A DNA stretch of 64,000 bases from Cymbomonas tetramitiformis (taxonomy: Eukaryota; Chlorophyta; Pyramimonadophyceae; Pyramimonadales; Pyramimonadaceae): positions 1 to 64,000 of the forward strand of contig LGRX02026029.1 of the NCBI GenBank assembly GCA_001247695.2. The letters run 5' to 3'. The position numbers were made by a program, and so were the translations under genes. Each line of letters begins with the position of its first letter. Positions within the stretch are counted from its first letter, which is position 1. Below are positions 2,877 through 55,790 of the stretch, piece after piece. Below the pieces are notes generated by a model. The model saw only the letters and a list, made by a program, of their open reading frames with translations. It did not search any database and was not told the DNA's origin.

Positions 2877-5800
2877 TCATCATAACTTTGGCGTCTCTGG
2901 GGAGCACGCGACGCGCCCATGCCGGCATGCCGACCGCGAGCCGCGTCCTGACGATGAGCGCCTTCCCTGGGGCTCGGAGATCTCCTCCCGCGCTGACCAG
3001 CCCGTGGTGAACGCTGCTGTGCGGCACTCTCAGTTGGACTCTGCGGGCGCGCTGCAGGATGGCCTGAAGGTCGAGTGTCGACATGCGCAACGAAGCCACT
3101 GGAACGCTCCGGGCTGCTGGGTGCTGTAGAGCTCGGGGTTGATGGCACGTACGAAACGGAGTCCTGCTCTTGTGCAGCTGGAGGCACGGCTTCAGTCTGC
3201 TGCGTGCAGACGGAATGTGCCGGGGATCTCAGAATGTCGTTGATTGACTGGTGCTCAGGTCTCTGTGCCATGTTGCACTCCAAGCCCATGGTCGATATCC
3301 CACCGAGAACTCGGCCAGAGTAGGGTGCCGGCGTGGGCGTGGCTCGCGTGCCATCACGACCATCAAGCCCCGGGCAGTCTGGCCCAAGCGTGCTCATCCT
3401 CGCAGTTGCGTGGGCAGCACGAGTTCGTTCTTCATATTCTCTGATGATCGCCTGACGTGCCTGTATCGATTCCGAGAGAGCCGCCATGGTGAGGTGGCTT
3501 GCTGCGACCTCGGCCTGCCCCTGCGCCAAACTGGCAGACAGCCCAACCAGTCTTTCACCGATGACCTCCACGCTGTCTTCATCCTCTGTCAGCGGCGACG
3601 GTGTTCTGGTGCGACCCGTGTGAGTGCTCACACCCTCAACAGCCGCGAGGTCGGAAGAGTATCCTGAGATGCTGCCATCTCCCTCCTCACTTCCTGCATC
3701 CCCTCCCTCGATTGGGTCCAGGCACCTCATGAAGTCGTTTCGAAGACGCGCCTGCACCTCTGCCCGACGTGCCTCAGCTAGCAACGCCGGGCCCACCGAG
3801 GATGTGAACGCAGTCAATGGTGCTCGGTGCATCACCGCCACCTTGTTCCAGGTCTCCCAGCTGCAGCAGTCGAACTTGCGCGTACCTGAGGAGAGGTACT
3901 CCAAGGTGAACGCCATGCTGCTGGGTCCCCGCTCACTGTAGTAGCGATTGTCCTCAAAGAGGTAATACACGGCCTTGGACCGGGCGTTGGCACGGGTCTT
4001 GAAAACCCGTAGGGTGCCCTGCCGTGGGCCATCGCTCAAATGGCCTCTGGCGATCTCCAAGAGCTGAGTGCGATCAACCAGATGCTCCATATGTTTCCGC
4101 AAGGTGCCGAGGAGTCCTCCCGTGCAGCCTTTCGACTGCCCACCCAGAGGCAGAAACTCTTCCCTTTGTCCCACTCCTGCGGAGGAAGCGTACTGGTGCA
4201 GGATCTGGCTGCTGAGTCGCTGCGTGTGCACCCCCTTTCCTCGCTCCGCGAAGGGCTTCCCGAGCTGGAACTCGATCTCGCCCATGAAGCAACGGTACTG
4301 GATGAGGAAGACCGTCTGTCCATGCAGCGCCATGAACTCCGAGATCCCTCCCAGATCCAGCCAGTTGGCTTCCCCAGCTGTGTTCTCGCTGCGAGTGGGC
4401 GACTCCGGCTCGTAGGTGCCCTGGAACACTGCAGCGTGGTACTCCAACATGGCAGGGTCGAAGACGCCGTTGGGCCAGGTTTGATGCCGTAAACGAAGCG
4501 GTGCTGAAGATGGTGGCGGTGCGGAGCCAGATGGCCCTGCCTCATCCCCCCTGACCGTCTTCGACGTCCCGAGAGTCTTGGATGTGCGCACTGGAGGGTT
4601 TCTTCTGGCCCCATAAGTGTCCAGCGCGTCCTGTGCTTGCTCCTCTGTCTTGCATGCTCCGAGCATCACTCTCGTGTTGTCCCCCAGATGCAGGTACTCC
4701 ACGGCGGCAGCGTTCGTGCTAAACACCTCGCCACTGCCTCCTTCCCCATCTGTCACCGGGTAGAACTTCCCCACCTTGTCCGCTGCGTCTGACAGCGTGA
4801 GCTGCGGGATCCCATTCACATTCACGCCCTCCACACCAGTCCCCTCCATGTCGTACCTCACCTTCAGACGAGCTCGAAGGTCAGCGATGTCCACTCGCTG
4901 TACATACTTTAGATGCTGGTACTGCCAGCGCTGGTCCTTCTCATAGTAAAAAGGCAGCTGGAACTCGCCAGTCATCTTGCCCATGGGGTTCATGATGGTG
5001 ACGCCTTCCATGGTGTGACGTACCATGCGCTCCATGAGATCCCATTGGGCGCGAGTGTGCTCGCTGAGTACGCAGAACTGGCGCGCCACCTTGTCCCACA
5101 TGAGCTTGCCCGTCACGACTCCTGGGTACGTCTGATGGGTGTTGAGGACCTCCTGAACACTCGCCATCGTGTACCTTCCAGCCTCCCGATGGGCACCACA
5201 GTCAGGGAGTGGGACCTGCTCGTTGTCCTTCCTGCCGCTCGCCCTTGTGGTCCAGGTCTCTGAGGGTATCTTTGTCTCCTTGTCAACCCTCTGGTCCACC
5301 AACGTAAAGTCGGGCCACAGTAGCTCCGTCTCTAGGATGGTCTTGTACTCTCCACAACGCGAGAACTTGACCCGCACAAATCCTGCGTCCACACCACCTC
5401 CATCGCCCTCTTCGCAGAGTGTGCACAGACGAGCATAGCCCGTGCGGTCGATGTACAGGCGCTGCTGAGCCCAGCTGCTCTCCTTGTCTTGGTGGTCCCA
5501 CGGGTTCACTGCCATGCCCCCCCATGGCTGTACGCTGGCCAGCTTGAAGGCAGCTTCGCTCTCGGCCTCCTGCGCCAGCGTGAGGTCTGGATAGCGAGGG
5601 TCTGACTGAGTTGTGGTCAGGCTGGCTGGCGTGCGGGACCCCCTCGCATCTGGCTCTTCAGCACTGGACCACTCACCTCTGGTCGCCACATTGGCTTCCC
5701 GCTGGCTGAGTGATGATGCTTGTAGCATGCCCAGCATCTGGTCTGTCAAGGACGTACCAGGCGGCGGAGGTTCGTACGTCGAGCCCTCGGTGTGTAAGCT

Positions 5801-7339
5801 GACTCGCCCAGTGAGCTCGACTTGCATCATCGAGCTGGGTCTCAGGAAGCCCGCCTCCACCATGGACTGGCAGCGCGCCTCGAGTCTCTCCTTCTCCTCC
5901 GAGTTGAACCTTCTCAGCCTCATCTCCTCTAGCCATGACGCCAGGCTGTCCATCAGCTCGGGGTGGTTTCGCGAGAATGCACAAGGTGCAGGCGCACACC
6001 TCTCCCCTGCGAGGGCCAGACGGTCTTCTCCCCTTGCGCCCAGGGACACTGCTTCACGTGGTGGTAGCTCGCAATCATCAAAAGCGGGGGCAAGAGTGCG
6101 CGCTGTCGTGGCATCAACGTCGAAGATCTCGGTCGCCAGGCACACTCTCGGGTCTTCATTCCGCTTGCTCCTTGCATCGACGGGCGGCGTCAACTCGATC
6201 AATGGCAACGTGACCTTCTCCTTCATACCCAGTGACACCGCGGCCTCAGAAGTAGCAATGCCTCTGTAGAGGTCGATGGTCAACTTGAGGGCGTTCTTCA
6301 GGGGTCCAGTGCCCACCAAGAAGTCCCACGTCGTGTCATTGGTGTAGGTGACGAAGGCGTGGAGCCGATGCAGAGTCATGTACGGCGTGCCCGCGGCGAG
6401 AACCACATCCACGTAGCAGTACTTCGTGAATTCCGCAGGGCTGCCATCACATCTCGCCACCCTGGCCCCTGTCTCTGCATCAAAGATGGTCAAGCCCAAC
6501 CTGTTGGCTGTCCTGATTGGGATAATGTTGCAGTTGGCCCCCGTGTCCAGGAGAAGCGCTTTGTACAACATAAGCAAGCCTCCAGAGGCCATCAGCGCCA
6601 TCCCTTGTGCCAGAGACTCGTTCAGGAGCTTGCATACAGGCTGGACCTGCGCCATGGCAGTGAGCTGTTCCTCTGTAAGACCACTGAGCATCTTCTTCTT
6701 CAATAGCTCGTACGCCTTGGTCTCCATGGTCCCTGCGTGCAGCTCACCCCTCTCGCTGAAGTCTCTCACCCCGTAGCTCTCCTGGACGGTGGCCGCTGCA
6801 GCTGTTACATGCACCGTCGTCCTCCCCTTCCTGGGCTGCTCCACCATGTCCTCCGGCATCTCATCCAGAGGAACCTCTTCTTCGTCACTGTCGTCGCCCG
6901 ACTCCATGCCCGGGCAATCGTCATCATCGTCACTGTCGTCACCCGACTCCATGCCCGGGCAGTCATCATCCTCATCGCTGATGTCCTGGCAGTCTGCTGC
7001 TGAGGCTGTCGGCACGGGGAGCTGGTTGTTCTCAGCCAGTTCCACCAAGGTCTCCACACCCCTTGGAGCTGTTATGCGACCTTCTGCTACGAGTCCAGCA
7101 GCTAGCTTGCGGAAAGCTGCTCCCAGGCTCTTGATCACGGAGGCCATGAGCTGCACCTTCCTCTGCATCTCGTCCGCCGCAGGCGCCATGGGCACCTGTG
7201 CGTCTGCCTCGTACTCCTCGGGTGTCTTCACTGGGAAGCCCCTCATGCGCTGGGTACTTCCCAGGGCTACTGCTGGAGCCGCCGTGAGTTCAGACTCCGC
7301 ACTCTTGCACAGCGTCTCGGGGAGTGCCCCCAGACCCAA
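2789..7339 (-). CDS. Retroelement protease polyprotein, about 1516 residues
   Basis: One uninterrupted minus-strand frame. An acidic segment with two copies of DDDCPGMESGDDSD lies near residues 125-155. A retropepsin-type aspartic protease follows, with LLDTGANCNIIP at about residue 265 and a flap/C-terminal part ending in WDFLVGTGPLKNAL. The 1,150 residues after the protease match no retroviral domain I recognise. They include a charged Cys-containing stretch (RLCTLCEEGD) and a Ser/Pro/Arg-rich C-terminus. That is very long for a segment between protease and RT. The 5' end overlaps the second Gag frame and the 3' end overlaps the RT frame, both in a -1 relation. The listed start is not an ATG, so the N-terminus may come from frameshifting out of Gag. 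Confidence 0.75.
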   Translation of the reverse strand: MGLGALPETLCKSAESELTAAPAVALGSTQRMRGFPVKTPEEYEADAQVPMAPAADEMQRKVQLMASVIKSLGAAFRKLAAGLVAEGRITAPRGVETLVELAENNQLPVPTASAADCQDISDEDDDCPGMESGDDSDDDDDCPGMESGDDSDEEEVPLDEMPEDMVEQPRKGRTTVHVTAAAATVQESYGVRDFSERGELHAGTMETKAYELLKKKMLSGLTEEQLTAMAQVQPVCKLLNESLAQGMALMASGGLLMLYKALLLDTGANCNIIPIRTANRLGLTIFDAETGARVARCDGSPAEFTKYCYVDVVLAAGTPYMTLHRLHAFVTYTNDTTWDFLVGTGPLKNALKLTIDLYRGIATSEAAVSLGMKEKVTLPLIELTPPVDARSKRNEDPRVCLATEIFDVDATTARTLAPAFDDCELPPREAVSLGARGEDRLALAGERCAPAPCAFSRNHPELMDSLASWLEEMRLRRFNSEEKERLEARCQSMVEAGFLRPSSMMQVELTGRVSLHTEGSTYEPPPPGTSLTDQMLGMLQASSLSQREANVATRGEWSSAEEPDARGSRTPASLTTTQSDPRYPDLTLAQEAESEAAFKLASVQPWGGMAVNPWDHQDKESSWAQQRLYIDRTGYARLCTLCEEGDGGGVDAGFVRVKFSRCGEYKTILETELLWPDFTLVDQRVDKETKIPSETWTTRASGRKDNEQVPLPDCGAHREAGRYTMASVQEVLNTHQTYPGVVTGKLMWDKVARQFCVLSEHTRAQWDLMERMVRHTMEGVTIMNPMGKMTGEFQLPFYYEKDQRWQYQHLKYVQRVDIADLRARLKVRYDMEGTGVEGVNVNGIPQLTLSDAADKVGKFYPVTDGEGGSGEVFSTNAAAVEYLHLGDNTRVMLGACKTEEQAQDALDTYGARRNPPVRTSKTLGTSKTVRGDEAGPSGSAPPPSSAPLRLRHQTWPNGVFDPAMLEYHAAVFQGTYEPESPTRSENTAGEANWLDLGGISEFMALHGQTVFLIQYRCFMGEIEFQLGKPFAERGKGVHTQRLSSQILHQYASSAGVGQREEFLPLGGQSKGCTGGLLGTLRKHMEHLVDRTQLLEIARGHLSDGPRQGTLRVFKTRANARSKAVYYLFEDNRYYSERGPSSMAFTLEYLSSGTRKFDCCSWETWNKVAVMHRAPLTAFTSSVGPALLAEARRAEVQARLRNDFMRCLDPIEGGDAGSEEGDGSISGYSSDLAAVEGVSTHTGRTRTPSPLTEDEDSVEVIGERLVGLSASLAQGQAEVAASHLTMAALSESIQARQAIIREYEERTRAAHATARMSTLGPDCPGLDGRDGTRATPTPAPYSGRVLGGISTMGLECNMAQRPEHQSINDILRSPAHSVCTQQTEAVPPAAQEQDSVSYVPSTPSSTAPSSPERSSGFVAHVDTRPSGHPAARPQSPTESAAQQRSPRAGQRGRRSPSPREGAHRQDAARGRHAGMGASRAPQRRQSYDEIWEERRRESALGPFQGGTGPAAARRARH

Positions 7340-8601
7340 GGTGTGAGGGCGCTCGAGAGCTCCTCTTCGCCCATCTCCTCGGCCATGGCTGTGAGTAACT
7401 CGGTTGGAGGGCCAGACGACACTCCTACCCCTGCGCTGCCATGGTGGTGCGCGCGTGCATCGACGGTGTGAGTCTCCCTCTCCGCGACGTGCGCTGCGAC
7501 TGGTTCCTCGTCGGAGCCCTCATCCTCGGACAGCACCTGCGACTTCACGCTGCCCGCACGACTGGCAGTCTTCCTAGCAGCCACCATGCCCTGGTACTCT
7601 GCTTTCAACGCCTCGGGATTGCCAGTGGTGCTCTTCTGCTTGTCCTCCGGTGACTGTTTGGCTCTGTACTTGTCCTTCTCGTCGTTGGACAGCTGCTGCC
7701 AGTCCGTCACCAGGATGCCCCAGTCAGAGTTCTTGAAGCGGTTCTTCAGATTATACATGCGCAGAGCGGCGTTCTCCGCGTCCCACCATTTGCTGGAACC
7801 AAGCCTGCTTTCGTGGAATCCAGCAGGCATCTTGACGTGTTTATAACCACTCCTGCACTGCTCGGGATCGGACTCATGCCAGCCCCCTCCAAAGCAGCGC
7901 AAGCACTTGGGCTTGTCGTTCGTACGCACGCCCTCTGCTGGCGGTGGCGTCTTGTTGTAGGAGGCCTTCTTAGCTCTTTCGGCCACATTCACCTCCTTCT
8001 TCATCTTCTTAGAAGGTGGTGTATCTACCTTCTTGCTGTTCTCCGGTTCGCCTGACTGCGCCACCTCAGAGGACTCAATCTTCTTGATCGAGTTCTTTAT
8101 GGCCTTGAGGTCAAGGCCATGCTGTCGCGCCTCCCAGGTGGAGTACTGGCAGCCACATCGTCTGGTGATCTCCTGGAGGAAGGTGAGGATCCAAGACTCT
8201 GCATCGCCCTTGAGCTTGTCTTGAACCTCGACGATGGCCTCCAGGTCCTTCCAGGTCACCCGATTGGGTGGCGGGAACTGTGCCCTCAGTTGCTCCTTCA
8301 CCCGCGTCTGGAAGACCTTGATGCGCAGGTTGTCCACGCAGTCCTCGATGAAGGTACGCAGCTCTTCATCGCTCAACACCTTCCCAGTGTTGAGCTGCAT
8401 TTCCCTGCGTTGGCACATCTTCATGTAGGTCAGCCCATCCTGCCCCACCTCCTGTGGCTTCTGTGTCAACAGATCCACTTTCTCTTGAGTCCCTTTCATC
8501 ATGAACTTCTTGTCAAGGGCAGCGATGAAGCCCCTGAGCGCGTAGAAGTACTGGGTATCACGGGTGCCATCACGTCCCGTCAAGCCTTTCAGGAGGTTCC
8601 A
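7267..8601 (-). CDS. Retroelement Gag, C-terminal part
   Basis: Minus-strand frame with Gag-like composition: helical and charged, with a retrotransposon-gag pattern (ALDKKFMMKGTQEKVDLL, then VTWKDLEAIVEVQDKLKG). A Lys-rich linker precedes a cysteine cluster, PKCLRCFGGGWHESDPEQC. Its spacing C-x2-C-x5-H-x5-C is one residue longer in two gaps than a standard zinc knuckle, so it is a knuckle variant at best. The frame opens only about 12 nt before the stop of the N-terminal Gag frame and in a -1 relation to it. An intact ancestor probably encoded one Gag, and a frameshift here is the simplest reading. The C-terminus overlaps the protease frame by at least 73 nt. Confidence 0.7.
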   Translation of the reverse strand, partial: WNLLKGLTGRDGTRDTQYFYALRGFIAALDKKFMMKGTQEKVDLLTQKPQEVGQDGLTYMKMCQRREMQLNTGKVLSDEELRTFIEDCVDNLRIKVFQTRVKEQLRAQFPPPNRVTWKDLEAIVEVQDKLKGDAESWILTFLQEITRRCGCQYSTWEARQHGLDLKAIKNSIKKIESSEVAQSGEPENSKKVDTPPSKKMKKEVNVAERAKKASYNKTPPPAEGVRTNDKPKCLRCFGGGWHESDPEQCRSGYKHVKMPAGFHESRLGSSKWWDAENAALRMYNLKNRFKNSDWGILVTDWQQLSNDEKDKYRAKQSPEDKQKSTTGNPEALKAEYQGMVAARKTASRAGSVKSQVLSEDEGSDEEPVAAHVAERETHTVDARAHHHGSAGVGVSSGPPTELLTAMAEEMGEEELSSALTPWVWGHSPRRCARVRSLNSRRLQQ

Positions 8602-9351
8602 TCAGTCAGATATTCGTCGGAAACCTCCCCTTGGGTGTCTTGGTCCGTCACCGGCCTCGCTATCACCCACGTGGTGCCAGTGTTCATCTCATTGAAAGGG
8701 GGCCTAGCGCATGGGATGGTACCCTCGAGTGGGCCATGCTCGCTAGTGTCCTTCAGGACTCGGTCCATGTTGGAGGCCACTACCCCCCCTCTTTCATAGT
8801 TCTCGCGCCACCAGCTGAGAGCTTGTGAGTTCTCTCCAGCCAGACACGCAGGGACGATGTCCCACAGATATTCAAAGTCAGGGGGAGTCTCTCTCAGGGT
8901 CTTCATCTGAGCTTCGGTGAGAGTGCCAGCCCCGGACCTGAGCCTCTTCCTGACGTTGGCGTTGTGCTGCCGTACGAAATTCTCGCACATGTCGGCGAAC
9001 TCCCTCAGGAACTTGGGCCGATCTTCTTCCTTGGCGCCCGTGTAGTTGGGCAGCGTACCAAGGTTGACACGAGCGTAGTCAGTGTACTCCATGTCTTCTT
9101 CAAAGATTATTAACGGCTCCTGGGCCTGGGCTTGCAGTTGTGCTGGTGCTTGTGCCTCAGGCTGTACTAGTGCTTGGGCCTCAGGCTGGCCACCGGCAGC
9201 CCCTTCCTCTCCTTCCAGCTCTGTGAAGTGCTGGCTCACTCGTATCGCTCTCTGGGCACGCCTCTCTGCCCTTTGCTGATCCTGACGGTCAGTCTTGGAT
9301 TCCGTTGCTACCTTTCTGGTGGAGAAGAGATACTGGTGTGAAGGCTCTTTT
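8589..9351 (-). CDS. Retroelement Gag, N-terminal part
   Basis: Minus-strand frame open from about 9351 to a TGA at 8589. It begins with a Gln/Arg/Ala-rich stretch, then a low-complexity QPEAQALVQPEAQAP segment, then a globular part (YTGAKEEDRPKFLREFADMC) resembling the start of a retrotransposon Gag capsid domain. No ATG lies in the open part before the conserved region. A CCACCAG acceptor-like sequence near 9318 could mark a spliced leader, or translation may start at a near-cognate codon. It continues into the next Gag frame only through a -1 shift. Confidence 0.65.
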
Positions 9352-44152: not shown

Positions 44153-45316
44153 GTAAGTTCAAACTTTTTTGAAATTCTGTAATATATATAAAAATTTTTT
44201 GTCATTTTTACAATTATTTCTGTGTCTTAAAAAGCTTGAACAAAAAGCCTCATTAGCTTAATGAGCAGTTCTACAAAGTTTCTGAACTTTCCGTGTTTAT
44301 TACAGTTTGCATGATACCTTCTGTCATTATATGACATGTGTGACTGTTTTACCCGATAAATTCGATGACTGACCAAAAGCTTATACAAAAAGCCTCATTA
44401 GCTTAATGAGCAGTTTTGCAAAGTTTCTGACCTTTATGTTTTTCTTTACAGTTTGCATGATACCTTCTGTCATTATATGACATGTGTGACTGTTTTACCC
44501 GATAAATTCGATGACTGACCAGAACTTGAACAAAAAGCCTCATTAGCTTAATGAGCAGTTTTGCAAAGTTTCTGACCTTTATGTTTTTCTTTACAGTTTG
44601 CATGAAACCTTCTGTCATTATATGACATGACATGTGTGACTGTTTTACCCGATAAATTCGATGACTGACCAAAACTTGAACAAAAAGCCTCATTAGCTTA
44701 ATGAGCAGTTTTGCAAAGTTTCTGACCTTTATGTTTTTTCTTTACAGTCTGTATGATACCTTCTGTCATTATATGACATGTGTGACTGTTTTACACGATA
44801 AATTCGATCACTGACCAGAGCTTAAACAAAAAGCCTCATTAGCTTAATGAGCAGTTTTGCAAAGTTTCTGACCTTTATGTTTTTCTTTACAGTTTGCATG
44901 ATACCTTCTGTCATTATATGACATGTGTGACTGTTTTACCCGATAAATTCGATGACTGACCAAACTTGAACAAAAAGCCTCATTAGCTTAATGAGCAGTT
45001 TTGCAAAGTTTCTGACCTTTATGTTTTTTTCTTTACAGTCTGTATGATACCTTCTGTCATTATATGACATGTGTGACTGTTTTACCCGATAAATTCGATG
45101 ACTGACCAAAGCTTAACAAAAAGCCTCATTAGCTTAATGAGCAGTTTTGCAAAGTTTCTGACCTTTATGTTTTTCTTTACAGTTTGCATGATACCTTCTG
45201 TCATTATATGACATGTGTGACTGTTTTACCCGATAAATTCGATGACTGACCAAAGCTTGAACAAAAAGCCTCATTAGCTTAATGAGCAGTTTTTCATTTT
45301 TTGCCCTTTACTGCAG
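44153..45316 (+). repeat. Eight palindromic repeats filling the accessory-gene intron
   Basis: Eight copies, about 146 bp apart, of a unit with GCCTCATTAGCTTAATGAGC, then about 35 bp later TTTTTCTTTACAG, then a second small palindrome GTCATTATATGAC. Palindromes start near 44251, 44396, 44541, 44691, 44837, 44981, 45127 and 45271. The palindrome is the same as in the transposase intron although the rest of the unit is different. Confidence 0.85.
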
Positions 45317-45524
45317 GATTCTGGACCAAGTATTGACAAAAAGCACATATTATTTACATATATATATTCTTCCTTTCATTCGAGCCAGATTCAATTTTCG
45401 TATGGATACAATAGGCGACCCATATCCACATGGTGATGCTTTGACGAGGGAACATCTCAACAATCCTGCCTTAAGGGAATTAATTCTTGCAGAAATACGT
45501 AGACGGAGTCGTAATTATGATTGA
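45317..45524 (+). other. Possible alternative terminal exon
   Basis: After a CTGCAG acceptor, a frame runs to a TGA at 45522 and encodes MDTIGDPYPHGDALTREHL plus a charged helix. AATAAA follows at 45548. Its phase fits exon A only in the unshifted frame, so it may be an alternative 3' end of the accessory gene, or a separate small protein starting at the ATG at 45402. Confidence 0.35.
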
Positions 45525-46922: not shown

Positions 46923-48308
46923 GACGGCATGAAGGCGTTGGCGTGTAGCGGGAGGGAGGGACGACCTAGTTCTTGGAACGAGCGGAGGGAGGTCGGCAAA
47001 AAACTGGCCTAGATGGGCGTGGTTGTCGGGCGAAGTGGACGGGGTCCGATCGAACCGCCAGTGTCGGTCAGATGCAGTGCAGCTCGATTTTTTAACGGTG
47101 CAGAACCTGCCAGTGTCGGCGTAGGGCTCCCCACCCAACCGCACGATCGGTGTCGGATCGGCGCAGCTCTATTTCTTTACGGTGTAAATCCTGTCAGTGT
47201 CGGTGTAGAGCTCTTTTTGGAACCGATGACGGGTTCGGGATCGGATCAGGCACCTTCCCTCGATCCGAAGTAACGGATACTCGCGGTGCAGCTGAAAATT
47301 TAACGGTGTCGGATCATTTACGGATATGATCCGACACCGATGTCGACACTGCTCAGCAAGCAGCGCAGGACTGGCAGTCCTTGCTCACTTTGCCGAAACA
47401 GCGGCGTTCAATATCTCATTCTAATACGATTCGGTATCAGATTGAGTATAACCACCGGTACCCCAGAGTCGTTAACGCCAAAGACGTCAAGGGGTGTACC
47501 TTCAACATACCTATCCAGTACATTATACAGGCTGAGGACTACGAGCGCATCAGGGATGAGGACCGTGCGCAAGTCGTGAACTTGAAAGAGAGCATGGCTT
47601 GGAACCCACACTCTTTTCAGAACACCTCCCTAGTGTACGTTATATGGGCGGACTCTGGGGAGCACCTCACAAGCGCGGAGGAGTTTGACCCCAGTAAGGT
47701 GTACGACGGCGTATATCGTTTCGTGTGCTTCGGGCACCAACATAGCCTCACCGCTCGGCGGGAGCTTCACCAAGAACAACCAGATAACGAAGCTTTTCAG
47801 CAGATCGAGTGCAAATTGTATTTTAATCTACAGTCCGACATGGTCCGATTTTTGGCTGACGAGCAGAACAGCGTCGACCAGAACGTGAAGGGCAAGTCGC
47901 ACCAGCAAATCATAAAATCCATGCGAGTTGGCATGCAGGTGATTTCTGAGAAAATAATGTAACTTATCCATCTTTGTCACTTAAAGCTCTTACTTACTTG
48001 AAGCAAAAGAATGTTACTGACCGTAATTTCTCAGCAAACCATGCAGGCATCGAAGGGCCCTCTCCACAAACTCTATTGGCATTGTGGCATCACCGACTGG
48101 GACGTTCAGCTCCAAGACTGGACGGAGGACGGCCTGGTGAAGCAGTTGGAAAAGCACGATCCCAGGACTTTCAGGCTTCCAAGGAGGCCGGAAGTTAGGA
48201 AGCAGGTCTACGAGGGGTGTAATTTCACCAAAAGCTTGAAGAAAATGGTGGTCCTACCACAAGGACCACCGTTATTTTGAGTATTAGGAGTCACATGAGG
48301 GGCTCACG

Positions 48309-49952
48309 GTGATGCTCATGAGCCCGTTAAGCCCCCAGCCAGAAGGTAGCTCCCACCACGACCAGGTCGTGGATCGCCAGGACTGGAAGCTGATCAGGGA
48401 GCGCTTTGAGGAGATAGCGGCCCAGTACGGGATGTTTGACGTTGACGCGTGTTGCGACTCCATGGGCGTTAACCGGCAGGTTGACACCTATTGGACCGAC
48501 TGCTTGAAGGAAAAGTGGCGCGGGAAACACGTTTGGTGTAACCCCCCTTACACGAAGGATTCGGACTTGATAGAAAGAATTCTTCGGCATTTCCTTGCTG
48601 AGTGGCGCGCCGATCCGGAAAACACCTCGGCAATGTTCCTTCTACCAGACTATGACGCTCCCTGGAGGCGGTTGATTCACCCCAAATATGGGCTTCATCC
48701 GGTCAAAGTCTTTGATATGAAGGACGAAAAAGGTCGTCCCAACCACCTCTTCGAGTCTCCCGATGGAGGTCGGCCCCCGCTGCGCTGGCCGGTCCTTCTG
48801 GTTTGGGCCCCAGCAGCCAGTAGGGCAAAGCCCCGAGCGCCACCTGCGCGAAAGGACAGTGAGACGGAACCCGACGAGCCTTTAGTCACTACAGGGGTTG
48901 CAGCGAAGGTCAGAGCAGCGTCGGGACCACTGAAGGCTGATGAGTTCGTCCGCGCCTTGCAAGCGGAATACGAACGCAGCCCGTACCTCAGTTCGTTGAG
49001 AGAAGAACTGATCGCAGCCCCACATCAGAGAACAGACACGTTTCGCATGGTAGACGACATGATTTGGCGAGTGGCAGAAGGGCGGTATCAGCTGGTGCTA
49101 GCTCAGGATTCCCCCCTCAGAGAGTTGGTGATGCGCGAGGCACACGAGTCCCCGGCAGCAGGGCACACAGGAAGGGATAAGACACTGGACAGGGTATCCC
49201 GTCGTTTTTGGTGGCCACGCATGAGCAAGGATGTCACCGACTGGTGCAAATCCTGCGTCGTGTGCCAGCAGACCCGGCCGCGCAACGGGTATCCAGACGG
49301 TCAGCTTAACCCCCTGCAAGTCCCAGTAAGACTGTGGCAAGTGGCTAGTATCGACTTCGTCACTGGGCTGCCTCGCACAGAGCGAGGGTACGACGCGTTT
49401 GCTACCTTCACGGACAAGCTTTCCAAGATGGTGCACGTAGTCCCCATGCTTTACGCTGACAGCTCGGCTGCTCAGATCGCGCGCATGTATTTCGACCAAG
49501 TGTGGCGTTTGCACGGCGCTCCCATGAAGATCGTCTGTGATCGGGACTCCCGCTTCAGAGATGAAATGCATCTCGAGCTACACCGGTTGATGGGAGTCCA
49601 GGTTGCCTCTACCACGCCGTACCACCCACAAGGTGATGGGCAGGCAGAGCACACAAACCACACGGTCGAACGTATGTTACGCGCGTATGTCGACGCCAAC
49701 CAGCACGATTATTGGGACTTGTGGTGTACCCCGGTCGAGTACGCCATCAATGACTCTCGTTCCGCCGTCACGGGCTTCACCCCTTTTGAACTGACGTACG
49801 GTCACGCTCCGGCCTCTCAGCTAGACTTCTTCGTGGAGGCAGCACTTGCATCACGGAGAGGCCGAGCTAAGGGGGGGGAGGGGCGCAGCAGTAAAAAAGG
49901 GTACAGCCCACGAGACAGCCCGCCAATTTGTTCGCCAGTTGCAGCTCGCTAG
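48309..49952 (+). CDS. Chromovirus Dam-like methyltransferase domain plus integrase
   Basis: Residues 24-170 resemble the bacteriophage/DIRS-type N6-adenine methyltransferase (Dam) fold: FDVDACCDS at 43-51, W-x5-W with CNPPY at 77-81 (the NPPY catalytic motif of N6-adenine methylases), and a MFLLPDYDAPWRR strand. A linker leads to an integrase with an HHCC zinc region (EAHESPAAGH, CKSCVVC; residues 278-319) and a catalytic core with D349, D411 and E447, exactly DD35E. Gag, protease, RT and RNase H are missing upstream: the element begins just after a broken host exon, so it is 5'-truncated or this part is a derivative. The frame runs into a stop after a run of eight G at 49870-49877, where the true frame shifts. 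Confidence 0.8.
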   Translation: MMLMSPLSPQPEGSSHHDQVVDRQDWKLIRERFEEIAAQYGMFDVDACCDSMGVNRQVDTYWTDCLKEKWRGKHVWCNPPYTKDSDLIERILRHFLAEWRADPENTSAMFLLPDYDAPWRRLIHPKYGLHPVKVFDMKDEKGRPNHLFESPDGGRPPLRWPVLLVWAPAASRAKPRAPPARKDSETEPDEPLVTTGVAAKVRAASGPLKADEFVRALQAEYERSPYLSSLREELIAAPHQRTDTFRMVDDMIWRVAEGRYQLVLAQDSPLRELVMREAHESPAAGHTGRDKTLDRVSRRFWWPRMSKDVTDWCKSCVVCQQTRPRNGYPDGQLNPLQVPVRLWQVASIDFVTGLPRTERGYDAFATFTDKLSKMVHVVPMLYADSSAAQIARMYFDQVWRLHGAPMKIVCDRDSRFRDEMHLELHRLMGVQVASTTPYHPQGDGQAEHTNHTVERMLRAYVDANQHDYWDLWCTPVEYAINDSRSAVTGFTPFELTYGHAPASQLDFFVEAALASRRGRAKGGEGRSSKKGYSPRDSPPICSPVAAR

Positions 49953-51303
49953 GGAAAAGCTGCTCTTGGCTCAGCAGCAGCAGATCGCCCAGTACGACGC
50001 GCGTCACAAGTCCAGGAGTTACGCAGTAGGTGATGAGGTTTGGGTAGACGCCACGTACCTCACCCAGCCGGGCGACCGCGGGTTGCACAAGAAGTTGCTT
50101 AAAAAGCGCCTCGGACCCCTTCGGGTGCTGGAAGTCTTTCACAGCGACAGGCAGATGGCCCTTCCCGCGAGCGATAGGGGCGCACCGTCGGCCTATAGGT
50201 TGCAGACGCCTAAGCAGTGGAAAGTGCACGATGTGTTCACCGTGGACCGGCTTTCGCCGGTGGAGTCGAGTAGCCGCTTTGTCGAGAGAGCTAAGGAGAT
50301 CCCCCCTCCTCCGTTGGACGTCAGTGGGCGCAAGGAAACCCACGTCGAGAGGGTGGAGCGTTCGCGTACGCGCCAGCGTCAGGGCAGGAGGTGGACGGAG
50401 TACCTAGTCAAGTGGACAGGGATGCCCCGCAGTGAGAACGAGTGGAAGACCCGAGAGGATCTGGAGTGGGACGGAGCCGGCAGGCCCGGCGTTCCCAACC
50501 GGGCGTTGTTGGAGTTTGAGAGGATCGAGGCTAAGAGAGTGGAGCGAGAGAAGCTTAGGGTCCGTAAGAGGCGCGACGAATCCGCAGGAGCAATGTGGAC
50601 CACACTTTCGGAGGAGCTCAAGGTAGACGGCGCAATGCCATGGGTGCCAGAGGAGAGGTTTGATGAGGAAGTAGGAACTTTCGCGAGAGTATCTGCTCAG
50701 GGCACCCTGCCGCCAGTCAACGGAGCCGCAGCACTTGAGAAAGAGCCAGTCGGCCAGTCTAAAATTCTCGTATTGTTCAGTGGGACCGGGTCAGTCGAGA
50801 GGCAATTTACTAAGCAGTTTCCCAACAGCGAAGTAGTTGCCGTAGACATTCAGCCCAAGTGGGGCCCCACACATTGCGAGGATATCATGCGATGGGACTA
50901 CCGACAGTTCAGACCAGGACACTTCGACGTAGTCTGGGCTAGCCCACCTTGTACAGAGTACAGCCAGGCGAAGACGGTAGGCATCCGAGATTTGCGCGCT
51001 GCGGCCAGGCGAGTTCGTAGGACATTGGAGATCATCCGGTACTTGAGGCCCGAAGCATACTTCATTGAGAACCCGAAGGGAAGAGAGCCCCACGGTCTGC
51101 ACACGCGTCGATGCATGGGCAATCTACCAGCTCCGCACCTCGTCACATACTGTAAATACGGGACCGCATACAGAAGCCCACGCACATCTGGACCAACGTT
51201 CCGTTGCACACACCCCTGCGAGTGTGCGATGCCGACACGCCTTGCGAGTTCTTCCGGCAACACGGTAGGCACGAGAAGGTCGCGCAGGGAGGGCGCGCGA
51301 TGA
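49846..51303 (+). CDS. Chromovirus integrase tail, chromodomain and C5-cytosine methyltransferase
   Basis: Continues the integrase ORF in another frame; the G8 run is the likely shift point. It contains the integrase C-terminal barrel (YAVGDEVWVDATYL), a chromodomain at about residues 165-230 (EYLVKWTGMP), then a C5-cytosine methyltransferase: motif I LVLFSGTGSVE (307-317), VVAVDI, motif IV ASPPCTEYS with the catalytic PPC (367-369), motif VI FIENP (406-410) and VTYCKYGTAYR (433-443). After YR, at about 51171, a single-base change moves the true frame to the next ORF. Chromodomains direct integration to marked chromatin; a linked methylase could mark the copies. Such fusions are known from Klebsormidium and dinoflagellate retroelements. 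Confidence 0.85.
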   Translation: MHHGEAELRGGRGAAVKKGTAHETARQFVRQLQLAREKLLLAQQQQIAQYDARHKSRSYAVGDEVWVDATYLTQPGDRGLHKKLLKKRLGPLRVLEVFHSDRQMALPASDRGAPSAYRLQTPKQWKVHDVFTVDRLSPVESSSRFVERAKEIPPPPLDVSGRKETHVERVERSRTRQRQGRRWTEYLVKWTGMPRSENEWKTREDLEWDGAGRPGVPNRALLEFERIEAKRVEREKLRVRKRRDESAGAMWTTLSEELKVDGAMPWVPEERFDEEVGTFARVSAQGTLPPVNGAAALEKEPVGQSKILVLFSGTGSVERQFTKQFPNSEVVAVDIQPKWGPTHCEDIMRWDYRQFRPGHFDVVWASPPCTEYSQAKTVGIRDLRAAARRVRRTLEIIRYLRPEAYFIENPKGREPHGLHTRRCMGNLPAPHLVTYCKYGTAYRSPRTSGPTFRCTHPCECAMPTRLASSSGNTVGTRRSRREGAR

Positions 51304-51605
51304 GAGCCGGAGGTGTGTTTGCGAAGGGCATGGGAGCGCGAGAGAATTTGTATGGGATTCCTTCAGCACTGTTAAAACAGCTTTTCCACAACCTGACCTT
51401 ACATGAAGAGGTGCATGCGTTCCTGTCTGAACTGCTTGTCAGGGAAGATCTAAGCGAGATGAGCGGTTTAGTCCAGTCAGCTGTTGTTGAGAGCGACCTG
51501 CCCGAGTTTGAACCGGAACCGATAGCGTTAGCGGGAGTACGAGCCGAAGTGACGATCATACCCGAGGGCGGATGGGAATCTGGCGCGAGTGGTCTTAGCG
51601 ATTGA
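51204..51605 (+). CDS. C5-methyltransferase C-terminal part
   Basis: In the frame that continues the methylase after the shift near 51171, the protein reads THIWTNVPLHTP, then a Cys-containing linker, then KGMGARENLYGIPSALLKQL, which fits the end of the family (R-x-x-LY-x-IP-x-L). About 90 more residues, acidic at the end, are unrecognised. Joining the two parts needs one added base, so the copy is either dead or carries an assembly error. Confidence 0.65.
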   Translation: MHTPLRVCDADTPCEFFRQHGRHEKVAQGGRAMRAGGVFAKGMGARENLYGIPSALLKQLFHNLTLHEEVHAFLSELLVREDLSEMSGLVQSAVVESDLPEFEPEPIALAGVRAEVTIIPEGGWESGASGLSD

Positions 51606-51631
51606 GAGCGTTGGAGAGTTTCGAGAAGAGC

Positions 51632-51975
51632 GGTGGCTCCAGCCTTGGCGAGACCAGGCGGCAGGTGAGAACCTGGGTAATCCATCCAACAGAGCAGTGG
51701 CTCTAGCCTTGGCACAGCCAGGCAACAGGTGGAAGTCTGTATAATCCATTTGACCCCAGCCTCGGTATGACCAGGCGGTAGGTGAGAACCTGGATAATCT
51801 ATCCAACCGAGCAGTGGCTCTAGCCTCGGTATGACCAGGCGGCAGGTGAGAACCTGGATAATCTATCCAACCGAGCAGTGGCTCTAGCCTCGGTACGACC
51901 AGGCAACAGGTGGAAATCTGTATAATCCATTTCATGAGAGCATTGGCTCTGGGTCTGGCACGACCGGGCAGCAGT
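51632..51975. repeat. 62-bp tandem repeat between pol and the 3' LTR
   Basis: Six units of 55-65 bp with GTGGCTCTAGCCTCGG, GACCAGGC and CTGGATAATC words. It lies in the untranslated 3' region of the chromovirus, upstream of the polypurine tract. Confidence 0.8.
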
Positions 51976-52377
51976 TGGAGATCTGGGTAAAAGCTCTACG
52001 CATTCCGAGGAGGCGGTAAGGGTTTAAAACCTTTCCTCCGGGCCGGCATCCCGAGAACTGTCAGGTAATTGGCAAACCTATTGTCATCACCTGTAAGTGT
52101 ACCGTGTTGGAAGGTTTGAAACCTTGAGCGTGGTAATGGATGTGAGAGCTCGAGCCTTGGGGGAGCCTGGTAGTGCAGATGGCAGACCGGTGAGAGGCCG
52201 ACCCTTGTGCTTAAGAGGTTGATCTCCTTACTGCGGTGTGTCATGGGAAGTGTAATGTCATCCCAGACAAGAGACAACAGGCGGCTGAGACCTGTATAAT
52301 CATCCTGAGCAACAGTAGAAGATCTGTATAAAAACTTTACTGGTCCGACGTGGTCAGCGTGGACGTGACCTTCCCTA

Positions 52378-52656
52378 AGGGGGGGGAGTTGTGCTAGGAA
52401 GCAAGCACAAGAGCAAGAAAAATGGCTAAGTACAAAACGCAAGAGTACTCAGTACGGAGTACAATAGGACCGATCAGAATGATGTTGATGTGAGGTGCCT
52501 AGCCTGTTGTACGGAGTACTCAGTACAGTTGAGTTATGGAAAGAGTTCATGAATGTATAAGAACTCGAAGTGTAACCAGTTTCGGAGATGAGAACTGAAC
52601 TGAAAAGTGTAACATAAAAGTAAGAAACTGTAACCGCTGTATATTGTGTAATTGCA
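52378..52656 (+). repeat. Polypurine tract and 3' LTR of the chromovirus
   Basis: The purine run AAGGGGGGGGAG at 52377-52388 is followed at 52390 by TGTGCTAGGAAGC, a TG-starting LTR end. The LTR runs on in AT-rich sequence until it is interrupted at 52659 by a DNA transposon and appears to resume after 54396. The CA end was not located, and no 5' LTR is in the window. Confidence 0.55.
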
Positions 52657-52771
52657 TATTCTCCCGGGGGTGGGTTAACCCACCGTAAGAGGGGTTTACG
52701 GTGGGTTACCCAACCCTAAGCATTCCACATTTCCCGCGTACTCCGCGCGATAACAGGTGGTTAGCCCCGTG

Positions 52772-53447
52772 AAAAATGTCTCTTACCCATCTGTTGGCTA
52801 TAGCCAACATTAGGGCCCCTTATGTTGGCTGGAGCCAACATAAGCCTTGCTGACAATGCCGGGAGCTGTCGATATCGGATTGTACATTTTATTAGCTCAA
52901 AATGACGGCGGGGATGTTCTCTATCACACATGCGTTAACACCATTGGGACGCTCGAAATCATCGGCGAGAATTTGGGTTACTATTCAAGAGAATGTGAAA
53001 TTTTGTGAAATTTCCAAGGAAGTTTGGGTGTTTACACACCCATGGTACTTCGATCGATATTTTGAGGGTCAAGATGAACTCGGATGAAAGTTTTGACAAG
53101 ACACTCCAGAAAGAGCAGCTCGAGATCTTGACAACACACAAGTGTCCGATTTTTCAATGCCCTTCTCATGCCGCTCACATTGCACAATTTTCTTATGTTG
53201 GCTGCAGCCAACATAATGGGCATTTTGCATTTTCGCGATCATACCCCAAATCTAGGGCACAAGTATGCAAGCCCCCATGGGTGTAAGAAGGTATACCACG
53301 TATTGACATTTTTCTAAAGGTCTACTAGCCCTTCAAACAACATTACTTTGGAGCAATATGTACCATTAACCATGAGTAATATGCTTCGGAACTTCGGGTT
53401 TAATGTTGGCTGCAGCCAACATAAAGATGGGTAAGAGACAAAAATAA
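52772..53447. mobile_element. 675-bp nested MITE rich in the GTTGGCTGCAGCCAAC palindrome
   Basis: The ends read GTCTCTTACCCATCT, then ATGTTGGCTGCAGCCAACAT, in inverted orientation (52780 and 53440). The palindrome appears four times, at about 52790, 52822, 53195 and 53404. No coding capacity. Confidence 0.7.
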
Positions 53448-53587
53448 CAACTAGACGCCCATACGAAGCTGGCAAAATCACCAACAACCCAAGCAGGGCT
53501 CTGGAAACTCACAAAACTCATGCCGCCGTTAACCCAAACCAGAAATCCAGAAAAAATATGTTGGTCGTTTGCTTACCGTCCCGTCAG

Positions 53588-53937
53588 GTGCCTGTCTGTG
53601 GTCGGGATTCGTTGGGCCCTTCAAGAGTTCGCCGATAACTGTAGTGACCTCTTTGAATACCCTCTCGACGGACGCAGAGGTAGTAGGCTATGACCCAGGG
53701 AAGGCAGTGAGCAAGCTCTTCAATGTCAAATTCAAATACGATGGTGACGTGCACGACAAGGCTTTGAAGTTCGCGGAGGAATATCTGGTCGATGACCCAC
53801 CAGAGAACGAACGCGACGAAGAGGAGGCACCAACCGAGACAACCTTAGCTCTTGTTGTTCGCAGTGGCAACGGCTCTGACTCGGCCGACCCAGCAGCACC
53901 ACGTGTTCGCCCTAGGCCTCGCAGGAATTACCGTTAA
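53588..53937 (+). CDS. Probable captured exon, function unknown
   Basis: After a CCGTCAG acceptor-like site, an open frame of about 115 codons ends at a TAA at 53935. It contains GYDPGKAVSKLFNVKFKYDG, an acidic stretch and an Arg/Pro-rich end. Its composition is that of a real protein, but I do not recognise it. Its position inside a non-autonomous element suggests capture of a host gene piece, as in Pack-type transposons. Confidence 0.4.
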
Positions 53938-54396
53938 TATGCGCTTACCCCGAGTAATGTGAGTATTTCTTCTAAAATTTACATGATATTTTGCTGTATA
54001 CCCAAATATGGATTAGCGCGCGGGGGGTTGGCTATCTTGACTTTGGGCATGCATGTGATAAATCGTGATGCCTCAACACATTATCAAACCTTAAAAAGTC
54101 TTAACATGCCATCAGAGATGAGGTATATAGCCTAGGTGAACCTACCAATGCGTCCGGTTTTTGGTAACCCACCGTAAGCAATTGCCTCAACCCACCAGTC
54201 GACCCTATCGACTTGGCATATCATTTTCATGAAATAAATCAGTCGGAGTGCATTATATTAGGGTATCTACGGTCAAAAGGACTCATAATAGTTATCGCGA
54301 AGCATAGGTTCGATGCCTCAACTCGATTTGTGCATGAGTTATAGGCCATTCAAAATTGCTCTTACGGTGGGTTAACCCACCTTAACCCCGGGAGAA

Positions 54397-54790
54397 TAGG
54401 CATAATGAAAGCATACACTGAAAGCATACTTGAAAGAATTACGAAACCGAATTCCGGATAGTGGACCAACCGTAGTATCGAAACCATACCTCGTGCGGTC
54501 GTTTAATAGTAGATATAAGATAAGTCCGAAACCGTAAAGAAGAGGATAAGCAAGGGTGTAGACTCCCACACTGCAGAGGAGTGCGCCCCTGGCGACGGTC
54601 TAGCGCGGCAACGAGCCGTTGCTGCCCGAAGCCACAGCGCTGCAAGGCACGTTTGCGGCAGTGGTACGGCGCAACAACGCGTGGGCCCATACTGTAGAGA
54701 GCGACGCCGCTGTGACCACCATCGACAGCGCCGTCACTGTGGCCATCCGCCACCGTGGCCACCGTGGCCACCACCCCTACCAAATAGGGA
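54397..54790. repeat. First copy of a segment duplicated at 58.5 and 60.1 kb
   Basis: From about 54545 to 54740 the sequence GCAACGAGCCGTTGCTGCCC..CAGCGCTGCAAGGCACG matches segments at 58565-58730 and 60090-60250. The copies differ by small indels. Any reading frame through them is inconsistent, so they are treated as non-coding repeat. Confidence 0.6.
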
Positions 54791-55790
54791 CGGGTCCATG
54801 TGATTCACAAATCGCATGGACTCCATGTGGACCTCACGTGGACCCCCGTGGACTTGGAATGGACCTCGCATGCCCCAAATGGTCAGACATTTCTCCCTAG
54901 GGGTCCATATGGGGTCCATTGAAGGTTCATGTGGGGTCCATGCGGTTTTCAGTCACATGGACCTCACATGGACCCTCCCTACGGGTCCATGTGGGGTCCA
55001 TGTGATACCCCTCACTGTGTACGTAGCATGTGGACCCCACATGGACCGATGAGGACCACATGGGTCCGATGGTCAGACATTCCTACGGATCCATGCGACG
55101 CATGGACCCCACATGGACCCCGCATGGACCAATAGGTATAATCGCATGGACTTCACGGGGACCACTCGGTTATCATCACATGGACCCCACATGGACCGGT
55201 AAGGACCACATGGGTCCGATGGTCAGACATTCCTACGGGTCCATGCGACGCATGGACCTCGCATGGACCCGTATGGAATGCATCACATGGACCCAGCATG
55301 GACCCCGCCCGTTTGGGCGCTCGCTCGATGGGTCCATATGATTACTCAGCAGGTCCATGTGATTATTAAGCGGGTCCATATGATTGTCTTGCGGGTCCAT
55401 GTGATTATTTAGCGGGTCCATGTGGGCATTAAGCGGGTCCGCGTGATTCTTCAGCGGGTCCATGTGGGCATTAAGCAGGTCCGTGTGATTATTTAGCGGG
55501 TGCGTGTGATTATTAAGCGGGTCCAAGTGAGTACTCCGTTGGTCCATGTGATTATCAAGCGGGTCCATATGATTGTCTTGCGGGTCCATTTGATTATTTA
55601 GCGGGTCCATTTGAGTATTTATCGGGTCCATGTGGGTATTAAGCGGGTCCGCGTGATTCTTTAGCGGGTCCAACTATTAAGCGGGTCCACATGATTATTC
55701 CATGGGTCCATGTGACTATTCCACGAGTCCATTTGATAATCATGCAGGTCCACGCACGTGATTATTTAGCAGGTCTATGTACTCTCTTGT
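54784..55790. repeat. GGTCCATG satellite
   Basis: About 1 kb of GGTCCATGTG and ATGGACCC words, at first irregular and in both orientations, then (55330-55690) a tandem unit of about 30 bp reading AGCGGGTCCATGTGATTATT. The open frames here are repeat translations (MDPLNNH...), not genes. Confidence 0.85.

Follow-up and report, generated by a model that had tools for sequence, protein, structure and literature searches.

Dam-like and C5-cytosine methyltransferase domains in one chromodomain Ty3/Gypsy retrotransposon family of Cymbomonas tetramitiformis

Methyltransferases (MTases) encoded by transposons have previously been known singly, and their purpose is debated: they may mark cDNA, evade defence or steer silencing. 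Klebsormidium nitens has an LTR element of the Gypsy type, KnitGypsy-Dnmt3, whose Pol includes a C5 MTase that conserves its key residues and is under purifying selection, with a reported Ka/Ks under 0.2 (de Mendoza et al. 2018, PMC5890265). The same source describes SymbioDIRS-Dnmt3 and SymbioLINE-Dnmt, retroelement C5 MTases of dinoflagellates that likewise conserve the key residues and for which self-marking of the cDNA has been proposed. DIRS retrotransposons carry a PF05869-type methyltransferase in Pol together with RT and RH, the tyrosine recombinase (YR) elements being described as devoid of protease and DDE integrase (PMC3783388). Among algal DNA transposons, ParB plus DNA-MTase proteins in Ectocarpus have been proposed to mark the element itself (PMC12477816). 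As for Cymbomonas, a cytosine MTase on high-copy repeats was already noted in 2015, and a chromodomain pol gene related to Chlamyvir has been reported in a paper whose main text contains no use of the word “methyltransferase” (PMC10675990).

Here we analyse a stretch of 64,000 nucleotides of contig LGRX02026029.1 of C. tetramitiformis, a marine green alga of the prasinophytes (the window), in which the 3' part of a 5'-truncated chromodomain Ty3/Gypsy element unites two MTase domains. An earlier note on this DNA had pointed to C5 capture by Ty3-type elements and Dam-like domains in DIRS elements, precedents that the sources above bear out, and had taken the combination to be new; indeed, a Dam-like and a C5 MTase in one element are not described in the literature searched, where the 2015 report covers the cytosine MTase. 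The following anatomy is read with high confidence, all features lying on the forward (+) strand:

48319..54570, +, remnant of the dual-methylase element, running from Dam through the 3' LTR, with the nested insert 52657-54398 inside it
48369..48821, +, Dam-like, predicted N6-adenine methyltransferase domain (FDVDACCD, NPPY), from PF05869, phrog_111, and an AlphaFold model with fold search
49110..49283, +, integrase H2C2 zinc-binding domain (PF17921, E 2.7e-24)
49338..49796, +, DD35E integrase catalytic core, from rve PF00665 and homology to the core of a sister element
49996..50277, +, SH3-like integrase C-terminal domain, from a match to the sister-element segment (SH3_Tf2-1, E 8e-6, below cut-off)
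50341..50466, +, chromodomain (PF00385, E 7.7e-8; CHD1, LHP1 and HP1 chromodomains in PDB)
50761..51407, +, small, predicted C5-cytosine methyltransferase domain (FSGTGS, PPC, ENP), from PF00145 and two-frame tblastn, with a frame break dividing it near 51.17 kb
51628..51990, +, imperfect tandem repeats of ~64 bp, lying after the C5 ORF and before the polypurine tract; sister copy L113 has them too
52377..52388, +, polypurine tract AAGGGGGGGGAG, read from the sequence, with the same layout in L113
52390..52656, +, first part of the 3' LTR, beginning TGTGCTAGG, its start inferred from the polypurine tract and TG, with L113 homology up to 52650
52657..54398, +, nested 1.74 kb transposon foreign to the element, with long terminal inverted repeats TATTCTCCCGGGG...CCCCGGGAGAATA, where L113 is uninterrupted
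54399..54570, +, second part of the 3' LTR, with a putative end near CCCACA (L113 1117-1284 corresponds to 54403-54571, followed by divergence)

The left limit was placed at ~48319 by eye, blastn homology to L092, L095, L096, L108 and L109 starting at 48307-48311; at the right, homology to one sister copy, L113, stops at 54571. The window copy is without gag-PR-RT-RH, homology to its relatives starting only at 48307-48319. Its coding part is a chain of three overlapping ORFs, at 48288-49952 (Dam, H2C2, rve), 49825-51303 (Chromo, SH3_Tf2-1, DNA_methylase) and 51156-51605 (C5 continuation), which is broken in frame at ~49.88-49.90 kb and at 51.16-51.17 kb and contains no further in-frame stop. 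The order Dam-like (NPPY), DD35E integrase, chromodomain and C5 methylase (PPC, ENP), as read in the earlier note from the letters alone, agrees with the Pfam matches. Its description of the chain as decayed was an overstatement, given only two frame breaks and 0.4 % divergence from the family over Dam-integrase, and the element does not end with the C5 ORF chain at 51605, since the stretch from 52377 to ~54570 adds a polypurine tract and then a 3' LTR into which the nested transposon has inserted. A similar polypurine tract lies directly 5' of the 3' LTR in the sister family. A reading of the ORFs at 47330-48280 and 53533-53937 as two halves of a host gene into which the element had inserted was rejected because the latter ORF lies inside the nested transposon.

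The integrase core is legible in the ORF by its DD35E spacing (the D of CDRD, 35 residues, the E of QAEH), the rve PF00665 match at 49338-49628 scoring E 6.2e-5, below its own cut-off. The upstream part of Pol is seen in a sister family with uninterrupted ORFs of up to ~3,000 aa in the order PR-RT-RH-Dam-INT-SH3-chromo-C5MT. L083, L084 and L085 each hold PR, RT, RH, Dam, H2C2, INT, SH3, CHR and C5 in a single ORF, as does L081 with a partial C5, all of these copies having been chosen for long frames. The Ty3/Gypsy order PR-RT-RH-(Dam)-H2C2-INT is found in L083, L084 and L085, the window copy showing H2C2-INT only, and the Dam-like domain sits between RNase H and integrase in the Gag-Pol polyprotein of the family. 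The sister-family LTR (TGTACC...GGTACA, 1385 bp, ~1.4 kb) is accompanied by a polypurine tract, and sister copy C3710 shows the LTR pair, the tract and a 5-bp target site duplication (TSD), TCGAC, on both flanks. Assignment to the chromoviruses is made here by Pol order, by the chromodomain C-terminal to the integrase, which the window copy displays, and by the LTR, polypurine tract and TSD of one sister copy. The window element is likely a young, truncated member of a Cymbomonas chromodomain Ty3/Gypsy family that has two MTases and a high copy number, and it probably belongs to the same broad group as the Chlamyvir-related chromoviruses of this alga.

No LTR pair was seen for the window family, the window copy having the 3' side only. 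A DIRS-like repeat layout, considered while no LTR pair was apparent, was rejected after a 5' LTR was read in C2521, where it precedes the ORF by ~5 kb. In the sister family the LTRs are ordinary and direct instead of split or inverted terminal repeats, and the scanned ORFs gave no phage-integrase Pfam match of the kind expected for a DIRS tyrosine recombinase but do contain a DDE integrase. This family thus stands apart from DIRS elements by its DD35E integrase and protease, by LTRs with a 5-bp TSD, and by the C5 MTase. With KnitGypsy-Dnmt3 it shares the C5 MTase inside the Pol of an LTR Gypsy element; as described in PMC5890265, however, KnitGypsy-Dnmt3 has one MTase, classed as Dnmt3, and repeats of DIRS-like layout, whereas here the C5 of relatives is of a small phage type, a Dam-like domain separates RNase H from integrase, and the LTRs of the sister family are ordinary ones. 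SymbioDIRS-Dnmt3 and SymbioLINE-Dnmt belong, in the same account, to other element classes with one MTase each. The ParB-associated enzymes are also borne by algal transposons, but PMC12477816 presents these as DNA transposons with one MTase in a separate gene and not in a Pol polyprotein.

The Dam-like domain matches PF05869 in ORF 48288-49952 (E 5.3e-9, scoring 36.4 bits where the cut-off is 28.1) and phrog_111 (E 9.7e-14), and its AlphaFold model resembles N6-adenine MTases. It misses the TIGR01712 equivalog cut-off (29.5 vs 97.05), and when the Dam alignment was searched against PDB sequences, the four matches up to E 1 included no methylase. NPP[YF] occurs at the expected place in 32/35 own-genome Dam segments and anywhere in 33/35 (the window copy counted twice), as well as in 16/17 database proteins; Dam motifs are broken in P0121 and P0151, and L102 and L105 lack NPP[YFW]. 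By profile match and NPP[YFW] motif the domain is a member of the PF05869 phage Dam family, with predicted N6-adenine activity. The same Dam type stands beside an RT in Cymbomonas P0160, where Pfam shows only RVT_1 and Dam; we take this RT to be DIRS-like. In a tree with 17 phage Dams, the P0160 Dam groups with the chromovirus Dams (100/98).

The C5 domain is small, ~210 aa, and several copies score at or below the Pfam cut-off. In the window the PF00145 match within ORF 49825-51303 is marginal (E 8.5e-5, 22.6 bits against a cut-off of 22), and tblastn shows the domain running on into the next frame, ORF 51156-51605. PPC is present in 19/19 and ENP in 18/19 own-genome segments (the window copy counted twice), L084 being without ENP; among database proteins the figures are 28/30 and 29/30. 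An AlphaFold model of the C5 relative P0111 resembles C5-cytosine MTases, and the C5 domains of the relatives P0012, P0131 and P0128 fall into phrog_757 of PHROGs. With motif I, PPC, ENP and a modelled C5-MTase fold, the domain is of the PF00145 type, its activity being predicted. One could imagine that the two domains act on RNA or as binding modules, Dam placing an m6A-like mark on the RNA of the element inside the particle and C5 behaving like the RNA-directed DNMT2 type. We regard this as unlikely, since the sequence families concerned, phrog_111 and PF05869 for the window Dam and phrog_757 for the C5 of relatives, are phage DNA MTases. In addition, DNMT3A fills the top VIA rows for the C5 model, followed closely by M.HhaI, which speaks against an RNA-directed role, and for two nucleobase chemistries in one Pol, DNA marking would be the simpler fit.

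A first look at the genome with the Dam-INT piece gave 3257 candidates, the copy number being a lower bound. All 40 that were scored lie at 97-100 %; one is the window, which the other 39 match at 97-99 %. In the window and the 19 best-scoring other loci, both MTases are detectable in 18/20, the chromodomain in 19/20 and RH in 13/20, the loci reaching only 1.5 kb past the searched piece. The observation of the earlier note is confirmed and extends beyond what it claimed. The assembly is repeat-rich, some CYMTET gene models, such as P0058 and P0040, are patchwork, and the window itself contains a genuine nested insertion, so an assembly chimaera, one insertion nested in another or gene models wrongly joined might conceivably have brought the two methylases together. 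Yet uninterrupted ORFs with both domains occur on 10 of the 11 independent contigs fetched for long frames and in the window-family locus L092, and dual proteins also come from JGI and ENA sources (P0113, P0114, P0121 and P0128, of which P0113 and P0114 are near the Cymbomonas copies and possibly from the same alga). Identities of the domains moreover co-vary with those of INT (Mantel 0.892 for Dam and 0.868 for C5, with 0/2000 permutations as high in each case). With both domains found on independent contigs, an artefact is therefore scarcely credible.

Dual-MTase proteins make up 21/160 of the protein set, elements with C5 only and with Dam only also exist, and neither MTase is therefore essential to such elements. 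This would suit captured phage genes carried without use, as would the absence of catalytic motifs from some copies. Variants common to several window-family copies, the window counted once here as in the 20 loci, are nevertheless 10 synonymous to 0 nonsynonymous in Dam (p 1.9e-7) and 11 to 6 in C5 (p 3e-4), so both MTases look selected; INT and CHR stand at 12:0 and 7:0. C5 varies more freely than INT when shared variants are counted (N/S 0.164 vs 0) and also by dN/dS (0.31 and 0.16 vs 0.15 and 0.06, the window copy being twice in the set, as WIN and L091), but the order is reversed over all variants including singletons, where N/S is 0.301 for Dam, 0.243 for INT, 0.092 for CHR and 0.193 for C5, values above those of shared variants. 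Dam and C5 are more conserved than linkers in 3/4 INT-identity bins, the closest pairs (INT >=90 %) having linkers at 95 and 89 %, equal in conservation to Dam at 94 % and C5 at 87 %. Retention of catalytic motifs between families at ~50 % identity and co-inheritance with INT also count against passive passengers, which we consider very improbable. Overall, the sequence variation suggests that natural selection retains both MTase domains, and it is very likely that selection acts on the function of at least one.

Which DNA the two enzymes mark, and to what end, is a matter of inference. Both MTases would travel in the particle together with RT and integrase and would methylate, at A and C, the new double-stranded cDNA or the DNA beside the integration complex. 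Such marks could make the cDNA resemble host DNA, shield it against nucleases or set the chromatin state on arrival. Self-marking of the cDNA is a tentative explanation of the benefit of carrying MTases, and still more tentative is the full picture, in which a retrotransposon abundant in an algal genome puts both 6mA and 5mC on its cDNA or at the place where it lands, a single polyprotein uniting the two writers with a chromodomain reader and the integrase. A CpG-deamination footprint on the window family was rejected, CpG transitions showing no excess (17 over 246 CpG positions vs 52 over 654 other C/G, Fisher p 0.67), a result that tells against heavy CpG methylation maintained over time. 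With two predicted chemistries apparently under selection in one Pol and many young copies, the purpose of such enzymes becomes testable: each mark can be scored independently of the other on any one molecule, and nature supplies the comparison of dual elements with those that carry Dam or C5 alone. If the full picture is true, this would be a mobile self-marking epigenetic machine grown abundant in an algal genome, and a strong case of phage-type methylases captured repeatedly by eukaryotic retroelements. One of the relatives, P0128, also bears a PHD finger.

In C. tetramitiformis, a phage-type Dam-like N6-adenine methyltransferase domain (Dam, PF05869) and a small C5-cytosine methyltransferase domain (C5, PF00145) are combined with an integrase (INT) and a chromodomain (CHR) in one Ty3/Gypsy element. 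The earlier note had observed this pairing in the window, and it is confirmed. Single ORFs elsewhere show it too: a close copy of the window element (L092) has a 1220-aa ORF spanning Dam to C5, and three copies of a sister family, on contigs with long open frames (L083, L084 and L085), encode PR-RT-RH-Dam-H2C2-INT-SH3-CHR-C5 within one ORF. The note's reading of the anatomy is likewise supported.

Methylase-bearing retrotransposons as such are known. In the relevant parts of the respective papers, Dam alone is described in DIRS elements (PMC3783388) and C5 alone in Gypsy, DIRS and LINE elements (PMC5890265), and both facts are given side by side in another (PMC6338049). The retroelement cases are repeated in a recent broad DNMT phylogeny, the pertinent text of which has no match for Cymbomonas (PMC12344493). 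Burns et al. (2015; PMC5741210) reported chromodomain, RNase H and cytosine DNA methyltransferase on Cymbomonas scaffolds at >10,000x coverage; an adenine methyltransferase is not named in the relevant text. The earlier note took the combination of both in an integrase-chromodomain element to be probably undescribed, and the open-licence PMC literature searched yielded no description of both enzymes in one retroelement. Judged from sequence, the novelty would lie in the dual architecture, its high copy number and selection on both enzymes.

LTR elements account for 15.3% of 914 Mb in the published long-read assembly, according to the section concerned (PMC10675990). The genome searched here is the 851.7-Mb assembly containing the window contig. 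A 1554-nt Dam-INT piece gave 3257 first-look candidates, and the 40 of these that were scored, window included, were 97–100% identical. Among 20 loci (the window and the 19 best-scoring others), Dam and INT were present in 20, the chromodomain in 19, C5 in 18 and RNase H in 13; the loci extend 1.5 kb past the searched piece, so that absences at the edges mean little. A Dam search returned 7257 candidates, and all 150 that were scored exceeded the cut-off. Dam and C5 share one frame on 10 of 11 contigs taken from this search for their long open frames, a sample biased to intactness in which one of the ten (L081) has a partial C5. Other copies thus do carry both domains.

Among the 160 proteins obtained in three protein searches, Dam occurs in 67, C5 in 63 and both in 21; many are partial, so that possession of only one methyltransferase is often uninformative. 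Single-enzyme designs covering the relevant parts nevertheless exist: P0131, P0137 and P0138 carry C5 but lack a Dam in the stretch from RH to H2C2, the C5 of P0138 being N-terminal, and P0159 has an N-terminal Dam (Pfam 19.3 bits, under the cut-off) without C5. Since several Dam-less elements have C5, the latter may have been acquired first. In P0128 (1457 aa, ENA source) Dam is followed by a PHD finger and then the integrase, and C5 is also present, putatively uniting one reader and two writers within one Pol. A C5-like match N-terminal of a Copia-type reverse transcriptase (RVT_2) in P0144 would represent a further element class with such a domain. Some JGI- or ENA-source proteins are almost identical to Cymbomonas copies.

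Retroelement Dams separate from 17 phage Dams in the tree (100/98), chromovirus Dams not forming one clade among them (3 changes), and retroelement C5s separate from 29 of 30 viral-contig C5s (100/99); the C5 of L022 groups among the latter. Origin of either domain by capture from phages is plausible rather than proven, because some branches are long. Another Dam type (FSVDAC) also occurs in the genome, at L065, L067, L068 and L069, in ORFs where Dam is the only domain detected, and in P0160. In P0160, which falls among the retroelement Dams, it adjoins an RT that we take to be DIRS-like.

In the window family, variants that recur in at least two copies split into synonymous and non-synonymous changes as 10:0 for Dam, 12:0 for INT, 7:0 for CHR and 11:6 for C5. 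The equal-length copies compared number 15, 19, 15 and 7, out of the 16, 20, 16 and 10 (of 20) that are covered to 90% or more in a single frame. With singletons added, N/S is 0.301, 0.243, 0.092 and 0.193, respectively. Stops are absent from 12 of the 16 Dam and 8 of the 10 C5 segments. When all retrieved copies are compared, the two closest dS bins give median dN/dS values of 0.12 and 0.09 for Dam, 0.15 and 0.06 for INT, and 0.31 and 0.16 for C5. Into these bins fall 192 of the 595 Dam pairs, 283 of the 561 INT pairs and 79 of the 171 C5 pairs, the remainder being nearly all saturated or identical; the pairs are non-independent, with the window copy entered twice. Mean pairwise protein identity is 59% for Dam and 60% for C5 versus 29–50% for linkers, an advantage absent in the closest pairs, and in a set of 11–12 elements the identities of Dam, C5 and INT rise and fall together. 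The shared variants, dN/dS, conservation and co-variation point to domains in use rather than baggage, and to long shared descent with INT.

Pol proteins of LTR retrotransposons act in the cDNA-making particle and in the integration complex, and for this reason the most likely role of the putative enzymes would be to mark new cDNA or insertion-site DNA. The window family has no excess of CpG transitions (17 over 246 CpG positions versus 52 over 654 other C/G, p 0.67), which counts against a simple CpG-silencing reading; C5 may favour a different sequence context, work on cDNA for a short time only, or leave a mark that is soon taken off again. The window chromodomain keeps the core W (YLVKW) and aligns M with a W of CHD1, two positions that we take to belong to the methyl-lysine cage; the sister family has Y at the CHD1 W position (P0113). 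Given this M, it is uncertain whether the window chromodomain would bind methylated histones.

The sister family has a 1385-bp LTR (TGTACC...GGTACA), of which the 3' copy starts ~56 bp downstream of the ORF, immediately preceded by a polypurine tract, and its copy C3710 is flanked by a 5-bp target duplication (TCGAC). It is therefore an ordinary LTR retrotransposon as to its ends. Aligned over 1314 columns, the two LTRs of C3710 show 37 mismatches and 1 gap; the 5' LTR is clipped at the end of the retrieved stretch. Short-period repeats, GCATGCAACC and GGTTGCATGC, occur in the L073–L090 series inside the long ORF, in the RH-Dam linker, and also in the LTR.

The proteins closest to the window element are CYMTET gene models of C. 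tetramitiformis (P0001, 91% identity; P0003, 92%). By comparison with sister copies, its left end lies at ~48319 and gag-PR-RT-RH is missing. The ORF chain, previously called decayed, has only two frame breaks (~49.88–49.90 kb and ~51.16–51.17 kb) and no further stop. As it diverges from the family majority by just 0.4% over the Dam-INT piece, this is a young copy and no old ruin. Its 3' side comprises:

64-bp repeats
52377–52388, polypurine tract
52390 to ~54570, 3' LTR, limits inferred from one sister copy
52657–54398, nested TIR transposon of 1.74 kb inside the 3' LTR, with long terminal inverted repeats (TATTCTCCCGGGG...)

The ORF at 53533–53937 within the nested transposon has no Pfam match, and neither do ORFs of 210 and 92 aa at 47330–48280, immediately 5' of the window element. 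A second Ty3-like element (3–9350, minus strand) extends past the left edge of the window, with RVT_1 and RNase H in ORF 3–2876 and a weak protease match in ORF 2789–7519; the part inside the window shows no integrase or methyltransferase. A minus-strand ORF at 40177–41022 matches DUF7869 (E 8.2e-30), and tandem arrays lie at 44213–45360 (~145-bp period) and 55288–55713 (21-bp period).
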